Of a stretch of 64,000 nt of DNA, positions 6,487 to 47,016 are shown piece after piece. Positions within the stretch are counted from its first letter, which is position 1, and every line of letters begins with the position of its first letter. Below the pieces are notes generated by a model, which saw nothing but the letters and a program-made list of their open reading frames with translations, was not told the origin of the DNA and ran no database searches. Source of the DNA: Boseongicola aestuarii. Lineage in GTDB: Bacteria > Pseudomonadota > Alphaproteobacteria > Rhodobacterales > Rhodobacteraceae. A program made the position numbers and the translations under genes. The stretch is from NCBI RefSeq assembly GCF_900184815.1, contig NZ_FXXQ01000010.1:1-64000 (forward strand), given 5' to 3'.

Positions 6487-7392
6487 TCAGGCCCAGACAT
6501 TTTGCTCGGCCTTCTCCAAATACCGTGCAAGAATATTCACCGATTTCCATCCCCCGGCCCGCATAATCGCTGCCGTATCATAGCCGGCGCAGAGGAGATC
6601 CTGAGCGGCACCAACGCGCATGGAATGGCCGCTGAAGGCATCAATCTCCCCAGGGGGCAGACCGACGCGTCGCGCCGCAGTTTTTACGAGACGCTTGACG
6701 ATCGTTGTCTCAAGGCTGCGGTTCAGGGCCTTGTTCTGATAGATCGGACAGAAGAGCCAGGGGATATGCGGCCCGCGCCATGCAAGCCAATCCTGAATGA
6801 GACCCGCGGTCCGGAGGGATGTGAAGGCGAGACGTCCTTCTCCGAAGGGATCGGACTTGCTGCGCCGGATGAGTACGCGAAGCGTTCCATCCTCGCGATC
6901 TTCCAGATCATCTGTTTTTAGGGCAACAAGTTCTGACCGCCGGGCCAGGAGTTCGTAGCCGAGGGCCAGCATCGCGCGGTTGCGCAGACCCCAGGGCGTA
7001 TCGGGTTCGCTGGCAATGAACCTCTCGAGATAGTCCCGCGTCAGACCCTTGGCTTGCTTTGGACGAACGGCATGCTTGCGACGAACCCGCCGCAAGGAAA
7101 GGTTGATGTCCTCGTCATAGGTCGGGTCCGGAAGCCCTAAGAGCCGATGGAGCTTTCGGATGGCATAGAGGCGACGTCGCACCGTGGAGGGTGCCCTGAG
7201 CTCGCCTTGCGCTTCCAAGAAGCTGCAAACGGTTCTGACAGACGCCGGGAAGGGCACGTTATCCGAACTCTCACACCAGTCGACAAAGACCTGCACGTCT
7301 GCATAGTAAGACCGAATGGTAGACGGGGCATACGCGCCCTCAAGGCGTTGGATTTCTGCGCGCCAACATGTAATTTTTATGAGGTCATCCAC
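6487..7392 (-). CDS. Tyrosine recombinase / phage-type integrase
   Basis: A site-specific DNA recombinase of 301 residues. An N-terminal SAM-like core-binding domain (about 12-105) is followed by the catalytic domain. The expected catalytic residues are all seen: R152 (in LARRSELVAL), K179 (RRSKSDP), H256 and R259 (SGHSMRVG), W282 (GGWKS) and the nucleophile Y291 (ARYLEKA). The gene therefore looks intact. It is divergent from a small XRE regulator 29 bases away, and a perfect dyad lies between them. Such compact recombinase-regulator pairs occur in integrative elements and in stand-alone chromosomal recombinases. The target site is unknown. Confidence 0.9.
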   Translation of the reverse strand: MDDLIKITCWRAEIQRLEGAYAPSTIRSYYADVQVFVDWCESSDNVPFPASVRTVCSFLEAQGELRAPSTVRRRLYAIRKLHRLLGLPDPTYDEDINLSLRRVRRKHAVRPKQAKGLTRDYLERFIASEPDTPWGLRNRAMLALGYELLARRSELVALKTDDLEDREDGTLRVLIRRSKSDPFGEGRLAFTSLRTAGLIQDWLAWRGPHIPWLFCPIYQNKALNRSLETTIVKRLVKTAARRVGLPPGEIDAFSGHSMRVGAAQDLLCAGYDTAAIMRAGGWKSVNILARYLEKAEQNVWA

Positions 7393-7402
7393 AGATCAAT
7401 TA

Positions 7403-7419
7403 TGATAAAAATTTTATCA
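7403..7419. promoter_or_regulatory. Perfect 17-bp operator-like dyad between recombinase and XRE genes
   Basis: TGATAAAA and TTTTATCA are exact inverted arms around a single central A. They fill most of the 29-base gap between two divergent start codons. The natural reading is the binding site of the XRE regulator, controlling itself and the recombinase. This is inferred from position and symmetry. Confidence 0.65.
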
Positions 7420-7421
7420 CA

Positions 7422-7676
7422 ATGCAAGACATAGAGGTCACCGGATATCAAATTCGCGCAGCGAGAGGCGCATTGAATTGGTCGGTTGGTGACCTTGCGG
7501 AACAGTGTGGGGTAGGGACGGCAACAATCGTTCGCTATGAGACTTCGGTTGGTGTTCCCGCAACCAGAATGGGAAACCTGAGGAAAATCCAGCGCGCCTT
7601 AGAAGCCGCCGGTATCGAATTCATTGGCTCCCCGGACGATGCCCCCGGTATTCGGATCCATCCATCTCCAAATTAG
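7422..7676 (+). CDS. Small XRE-family helix-turn-helix regulator
   Basis: An 84-residue DNA-binding protein that is essentially one lambda-repressor-like HTH domain (about residues 8-70), with the pattern QIRAARGALNWSVGDLAEQC ... TATIVRYE. Members with a GIEFI ending resemble small Cro/CI-type transcriptional regulators. The ATG follows the operator-like dyad by two bases and no Shine-Dalgarno sequence is visible, so it may be translated from a leaderless or very short-leader mRNA. It probably represses the divergent recombinase and itself; that role is inferred. Confidence 0.85.
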   Translation: MQDIEVTGYQIRAARGALNWSVGDLAEQCGVGTATIVRYETSVGVPATRMGNLRKIQRALEAAGIEFIGSPDDAPGIRIHPSPN

Positions 7677-46764: not shown

Positions 46765-47016
46765 ATGTCTAAGGTGGAAGAAATCGCAGACGGATTGGCC
46801 AGGCGCGCGCTTGAACTGTTCAACAAGACCGGCGACGAAACGATCGAAAAGCGGATTGCCGATGAGATCGGCGCCTCGTCTCCGACGCTTCAGGAGGCCT
46901 ACAACACCGCTTTGCGGATCCGCAAAGCGGAACTCCGGGCGTCACGGCTTCTGGACAAATACAGCGTAGGCGACGCCATCCCGAAAGCCGCGATATCGTC
47001 CCAGCCGCAGGACTAA
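46765..47016 (+). CDS. Small hypothetical protein
   Basis: An 83-residue helical, charged protein (MSKVEEIADGLARRALELFN ... LQEAYNTALRIRKAELRASR) with AGGAG upstream. It is divergent from sdaA and its stop overlaps the DUF2065 gene stop by four bases. No family is recognised. Confidence 0.65.
   Translation: MSKVEEIADGLARRALELFNKTGDETIEKRIADEIGASSPTLQEAYNTALRIRKAELRASRLLDKYSVGDAIPKAAISSQPQD

Follow-up and report, generated by a model that had tools for sequence, protein, structure and literature searches.

The 64-kb window (the whole stretch of DNA analysed here) carries a Cre-like tyrosine recombinase gene and a small XRE regulator gene that diverge from a short gap. Our comparison of related loci suggests that the dyad in this gap is a dedicated operator of the XRE protein, that a bound dimer would repress both genes, and that the operator has been exchanged together with the domain that reads it; taken together, we give this reading a probability of roughly 0.8. 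In the proposed mechanism, an XRE dimer would read two half-sites (TGATAA in the window) with its third helix (residues 33–41), and would most likely block the overlapping promoters from which its own gene and the divergent recombinase are transcribed. The recombinase would be kept off as long as repressor is present, and could be released, for instance, on entry of the module into a new cell. Operator and helix-turn-helix (HTH) domain would have been replaced together repeatedly, with the recombinase and the C-terminal hairpin of the XRE protein staying in place. This would have given rise to a large number of separate repressor-operator types, much like the immunity types of phages. From these comparisons we infer that the protein binds the dyad and represses both genes, that leaders are very short, that entry induces the module and that the types exclude one another, and likewise why the types are so diverse.

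The dyad and its place in the genome

The gap is bounded by the GTG of the recombinase (7392, minus strand) and the ATG of the XRE gene (7422, plus strand). Support for the GTG start comes from a relative (L023): its recombinase can be aligned from residue 1, and the distance from start to dyad is the same as in the window. Within the gap, TGATAAAAATTTTATCA forms a 17-bp dyad with perfect 8-bp arms and a 1-base centre, which extends imperfectly to 25 bp at 7399–7423 (11/12 pairs). The sequence-only reading had described the gap as almost entirely a perfect dyad; the perfect dyad is there, and "almost entirely" was slightly strong for 17 of 29 bases. Arms of at least 8 were reached in 812 of 200,000 shuffles of the gap. 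Three dyads with a centre of 0 or 1 and arms of at least 8 are found in the window, this one among them; the longest of the three is a perfect 24-bp palindrome, CCGCTTTGCGGATCCGCAAAGCGG, with 12-bp arms at 46907–46930.

At up to two mismatches the dyad sequence occurs once in the window, and a search for it in the 4.0-Mb genome, which the earlier reading had proposed as a check, likewise returned a single site. At up to three mismatches the genome holds the dyad and two sites with exactly three mismatches (four sites for the reversed control), and a looser operator pattern with at most one mismatch gave three further sites versus two for its reversed control. Because no other genome site matches at up to two mismatches and the looser pattern gives three sites against two in the control, the dyad looks like a private operator of the neighbouring XRE gene, not a regulon box. 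Since it abuts both starts, repression of both divergent genes by the XRE protein is plausible.

Table 1. Features of the module, as positions in the 64-kb window; the operator is assigned by comparison of loci.
Feature	Position	Strand	Evidence
Cre-like tyrosine recombinase, 301 aa, GTG start	6487..7392	-	Pfam PF00589 9.8e-18; Cre 1crx match; catalytic residues
Window counterpart of the putative exchangeable cassette	7360..7601	.	Limits inferred from other loci
Gap between divergent starts, 29 bases	7393..7421	.	Sequence
Perfect dyad TGATAAAA-A-TTTTATCA, putative XRE operator	7403..7419	.	Genome search, covariation, shuffles
84-aa XRE/HTH_3 regulator	7422..7676	+	Pfam HTH_3 2.6e-6; AlphaFold pLDDT 92; fold match C.Kpn2I
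Codons of XRE residues 31-40 (VGTATIVRYE)	7512..7541	+	Operator covariation; AlphaFold model

Components and distribution of the module

The catalytic set of the window recombinase is R151, K179, H256, R259, W282 and Y291, and it is conserved across 84 aligned rows (gaps omitted): R151 in 81/81, K179 in 80/80, H256 and R259 in 79/79, and W282 and Y291 in 78/78. The protein matches Cre (1crx) at E 2.3e-27 and XerD at E 6.5e-6, and it scores far under the curated cut-offs of the XerC and XerD models. Judged by its sequence, it has two features of a Cre-type enzyme, the R-K-H-R-W-Y set and a closer relation to Cre than to XerC or XerD. Recombinases of the Cre type (P1 Cre, D6 Dre) resemble it in size and in the full catalytic set, and include the closest solved relative over residues 23–296; the window recombinase is ~29% identical to this type and, unlike it, is coupled to an XRE gene. 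Phage proteins matched the recombinase only at this Cre/Dre level (<60%), and seven pattern matches on viral contigs, in a search that reaches close relatives only, were not confirmed. An anti-phage library gave no match for the recombinase and seven HTH-type matches to the XRE protein, the best being mad1 (8.6e-6) and Control_protein (4.5e-5).

The XRE protein scores 27.8 bits against HTH_3 (gathering cut-off 23). Its AlphaFold model has helices at residues 8–18, 22–29, 33–41 and 52–62, followed by the C-terminal hairpin; the structure alignment covers 56 of the 58 training proteins (L052 and L059 left out). The best solved relative is C.Kpn2I (4yba), with E 0.0023 by sequence and 3.8e-5 by fold.

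The divergent pair recurs in 84 compiled alphaproteobacterial loci. Among the best 80 XRE relatives from genome contigs, 54 have a divergent recombinase relative inside the fetched DNA; to these we added the window, four further loci (L005, L006, L007 and L018) and 26 new loci, and removed L061, the same module as L007, from the counts. The new loci are the usable ones of 29, the other three (L117, L118 and L120) having no detectable divergent XRE gene. At an XRE identity below 90%, 73 loci are non-redundant, and 67 of these have a long recombinase alignment. Recombinase relatives are sporadic: with the own genome counted each time, a threshold of E 1e-20 finds them in 14 of 147 near genomes, and one of 1e-60 in 24 of 390 genomes from the order and in 3 of 385 from the class.

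The own genome contains a second module on another contig (G000 contig C40, L130:9020-15241), and a third XRE relative lies nearby. The operator word of the second module, TGTCAC/CGGCAC, differs from that of the window. The third XRE relative (L130:17587-17802; G000:C40:29589-29807) is ~2.5 kb from the second module and has no recombinase match alongside. Recombinase fragments were also seen near intact modules (L132:1594-1674, L103:5666-5950, L038:4974-5168 and L048:6180-6344), and the one in L103 retains its own XRE gene. The position of such fragments within a few kb of intact copies suggests that modules arrived repeatedly at the same places, where older copies may have decayed.

A literature search, with most subscription journals outside its coverage, found no name for the module in titles or abstract openings. 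Cre-type recombinases have reportedly been mined before, and covariation between C proteins and their C-boxes is said to have been described. The new elements here are an operator-reader cassette, apparently exchangeable, within a recombinase module, and the frequent location of this module close to surface-polysaccharide genes.

Covariation of operator and recognition helix

A dyad with all six outer-arm pairs stands at the expected place in 25 of the 73 loci (shuffled sets: mean 0.9, maximum 4), and one with at least five of six pairs in 56 (mean 13.6, maximum 25); it is missing in 17. The half-site words differ among loci, with TGATAA in the window and TGGCAC, TTGCGT, TGTCCA and others elsewhere, and we count 15 distinct perfectly symmetric six-letter operator words, some of them close to one another. 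The automatically chosen word looks wrong in L051, L053, L047, L052 and L079. The words follow the sequence of the recognition helix: xxATIVRYE goes with TGATAA or near variants, RTLKRIE with TGGCAC, KTIRR with TGTCCA or TGTCCC, and SLRTVQ with TTGCGT or near variants. In L045, L043, L037 and L048 the helix STIKR is paired with TGATAC on one arm or both; an exception is L105, which has TGGGCT, and the STIKR loci L052 and L079 are unread.

Corrected for the rest of the XRE protein, operator similarity is correlated with recognition-helix similarity at a partial r of 0.385 (reached in 0 of 5000 permutations, permuted maximum 0.212), a figure that may carry shared ancestry, as may the other covariation figures, because the Mantel permutations ignore phylogeny. 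With the helix accounted for, the partial r between operator and the rest of the XRE protein is 0.027, and that between operator and recombinase sequence is 0.039 (n = 67). The latter is 0.033 without the row of L103, a locus with two XRE genes of which the one beside the recombinase fragment was kept and mispaired with the intact recombinase; the removal leaves the result unchanged. The XRE residues that covary most with the operator are 34, 38, 39 and 37, all in the model helix 33–41. Because the operator type of the window is common to closely related XRE proteins, this covariation is invisible from the window alone.

We then used the nearest helix to predict operators in held-out loci, 17 of the 26 after nine near-identical ones were removed. 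The mean operator match was 0.717, compared with 0.525 for permuted pairs (0 of 5000; n = 17); half-site scoring was fixed before the held-out operators and the nearest-helix rule was written after them, so that the loci are held out in data, not blind. The poorest predictions were for L122 (0.33), L126 (0.33), L107 (0.42) and L125 (0.50). That the XRE product binds the dyad, as the sequence-only reading had thought very likely, is strongly supported by the covariation of operator and helix, by this held-out prediction and by the lack of a tie to recombinase sequence; on comparative grounds the case for the XRE protein as the reader of the dyad is strong. More broadly, one protein family here offers naturally occurring operator types, each matched to HTH residues that can be read, and an HTH_3 recognition code thereby becomes directly testable.

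A different reading is that the dyad is the recombinase's own lox-like core site and not an operator of the regulator. The recombinase is Cre-like, and Cre-like enzymes can act beside their own gene. However, the sequence of the dyad does not track that of the recombinase (partial r 0.04), recombinases that are 93–95% identical carry unrelated dyads, and 8-bp arms around a 1-base centre misfit the 13-8-13 geometry of loxP, and we regard this reading as highly improbable. A search within ~2.5 kb of the recombinase for lox-like inverted repeats gave 50 overlapping candidates, none common to independent loci apart from the TTCCCTGTT arms and one pair that lies within two recombinase genes. Words shared beyond the recombinase stop were at null level (L059 also left out). 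The lox-like site of a Cre-type enzyme could be farther from the gene, or vary. Inverted TTCCCTGTT/AACAGGGAA repeats lie near the module in the sphingomonad loci L059, L062 and L088; the TTCCCTGTT repeat was considered as a recombination site and dropped, with few copies and none in the window.

It seems also quite improbable that the XRE protein is a recombination directionality factor and the dyad its accessory site. Such a role would suit a small protein of DNA-binding type encoded in a divergent pair with a recombinase, but no recombination site was found near the gene, and the dyad abuts both starts at recurrent spacings.

Mosaic structure of the module

The operator and the HTH domain that reads it seem to be swapped together, as a cassette of ~250 bp, across Alphaproteobacteria. 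The cassette would comprise the first ~10 codons of the recombinase, the operator, and the XRE HTH domain to about codon 60. The pattern is clear in L025 (Paradonghicola), L060 (Marivivens) and L101 (an Aestuarium plasmid), which are 74–96% identical per 50-base bin over the recombinase body and 76–96% beyond the XRE HTH, versus 34–60% from the operator to about XRE codon 60. In this alignment similarity changes sharply around codon 10 of the recombinase and at the GIEFIG codons, which are conserved in the XRE gene. Words common to loci beyond the XRE stop reflect the closely similar downstream DNA of these three loci and duplicates. The same mosaic, with similar flanks on both sides, is seen in L084/L102 and in L038/L058, the latter two being one metagenome bin. 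In L062/L029 and L128/L121 the recombinase body and the XRE tail are shared and the DNA beyond is not; the mosaic is milder in L042/L054 and noisier in L122/L109 and L074/L018. It is because highly similar recombinases and XRE tails go with unrelated operators and HTH domains in several such groups that the operator and its reader seem to be exchanged as one unit. As counter-examples, the related pairs L063/L066, L027/L026 and L065/L106 kept both operator and HTH type, as expected if exchange is frequent and not constant. No exchange partner was found for the module of the window.

As recombinase identity goes from 0.3 to 0.98 among all pairs, the mean identity of the XRE C-terminal part climbs from 0.64 to 0.92, while that of the XRE HTH remains at 0.40–0.51. 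We read the swapping of cassettes as diversification of immunity types, with selection as the presumed cause, and it suggests that a matched repressor-operator unit has been exchanged again and again outside phages. Alternatively, drift and ordinary recombination may have produced the diversity of operators and HTH domains, with no selection for distinct specificities. Conserved flanks allow any segment to be moved by homologous recombination, and the difference between recognition helices in all seven of the two-copy genomes or bins that we noticed is what chance expects given many types. Against this, HTH identity stays flat while C-terminal identity rises, so replacement appears to be concentrated on the specificity unit, and we consider drift a possible but unlikely account beside diversification under selection.

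Gene starts and expression

A Shine-Dalgarno signal of at least 4 nt stands before the start of the XRE gene in 10 of 84 loci and before that of the recombinase in 2 of 58; for comparison, four related plasmid stretches have one at 38 of 81 other annotated genes, and shuffles give 12.7%. These rates are rough, as start codons were chosen by a simple first-start rule and two recombinases had no start found. The sequence-only reading had seen no room in the gap for promoters plus ribosome sites. Its part on ribosome sites is supported, the signals being at chance level for both genes; its part on promoters holds only halfway, since promoter parts can sit inside the neighbour's coding sequence. 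In 20 of 84 loci, the window included, 11 nt separate the XRE ATG from the centre of the dyad. If a -10 element lay within the dyad or next to it, transcripts would have very short leaders, and this is plausible because Shine-Dalgarno signals are at chance. A scan for consensus promoters around the gap was at chance level, so leaderless or very-short-leader mRNAs are, on the sequence, a plausible interpretation. Leaderless mRNAs are known in the class, with 7% given for Methylorubrum in one study (PMC9320726).

Comparison with known systems and gene neighbourhoods

The XRE protein could be an activator or a controller like the C proteins of restriction-modification systems, which activate at low dose and repress at high dose, and the recombinase would then come in a delayed pulse instead of being under plain repression. 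C.Kpn2I, a controller that acts in more than one way, is its best solved relative by sequence and by fold, the Control_protein model matches, and C proteins share with it a small HTH fold and the regulation of a DNA-acting enzyme. In the gaps of L074, L045 and L043 the dyad centre has a further half-site ~10 bp away, which would fit two dimers that cooperate. However, the C-box is a two-dimer site, according to PMC6237814, whereas the window has one clear 17-bp dyad, and its XRE gene is divergent to the recombinase, not operonic with it. We consider such a controller somewhat unlikely, and keep plain repression of both genes as the preferred reading. No methylase/restriction pair was named in four annotated 25-kb module neighbourhoods (whose gene tables are incomplete) or among ten window proteins, the nearest exceptions in the neighbourhoods being a VapC toxin in L104 and, where the L101 stretch ends, one "endonuclease".

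In temperate phages, repressor and operator diversify together and are exchanged. The phage immunity repressors P22 c2 and P2 C resemble the XRE protein in HTH fold, being among its fold matches, and in an operator at a divergent gene pair. They differ in that the window module lies outside any recognisable phage, controls a recombinase, and has a constant C-terminal hairpin with a swapped HTH. Both the C-protein and the phage-repressor assignments of the XRE protein are resemblances only.

A panel of 22 polysaccharide-related proteins had matches at 23 of 48 module loci versus 1 of 25 XRE loci without a recombinase, a comparison in which the panel, drawn from annotated neighbours on module-bearing plasmids, favours related clusters and the control loci come from more distant hosts. 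A Pfam scan of large neighbouring ORFs (137 of 142 chosen, partly the same proteins as the panel matches) was led by sugar-nucleotide epimerase, GDP-mannose dehydratase and glycosyltransferase families. The second module of the own genome directly adjoins gmd, GDP-fucose synthase, manC and manB homologues. The copy in the window has no match to the panel in 64 kb, and its neighbours are ABC-transporter and HlyD genes and a large DUF5801 ORF.

As a more speculative and rather doubtful idea, the module may be a self/non-self gate on recombination at surface-polysaccharide islands, with cassette swapping under diversifying selection. If so, an incoming module with an operator type that the resident repressor does not read would escape silencing, make recombinase, and exchange or insert its island, and modules of the same type would stay silent. 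Swaps of operator and HTH, like phage immunity types, would then decide which surface-coat genes strains trade. Should the polysaccharide link be functional, it would offer a testable mechanism by which Alphaproteobacteria control the trading of surface-coat gene clusters.

Past the XRE gene, recurrent neighbours in L018, L022, L102, L103, L104 and others include VanZ-like and HGGxSTG-domain proteins, proteins labelled "terminase small subunit", and toxin-antitoxin pairs. The "terminase small subunit" label occurs next to two of the four annotated modules, and is the one hint toward a phage link.
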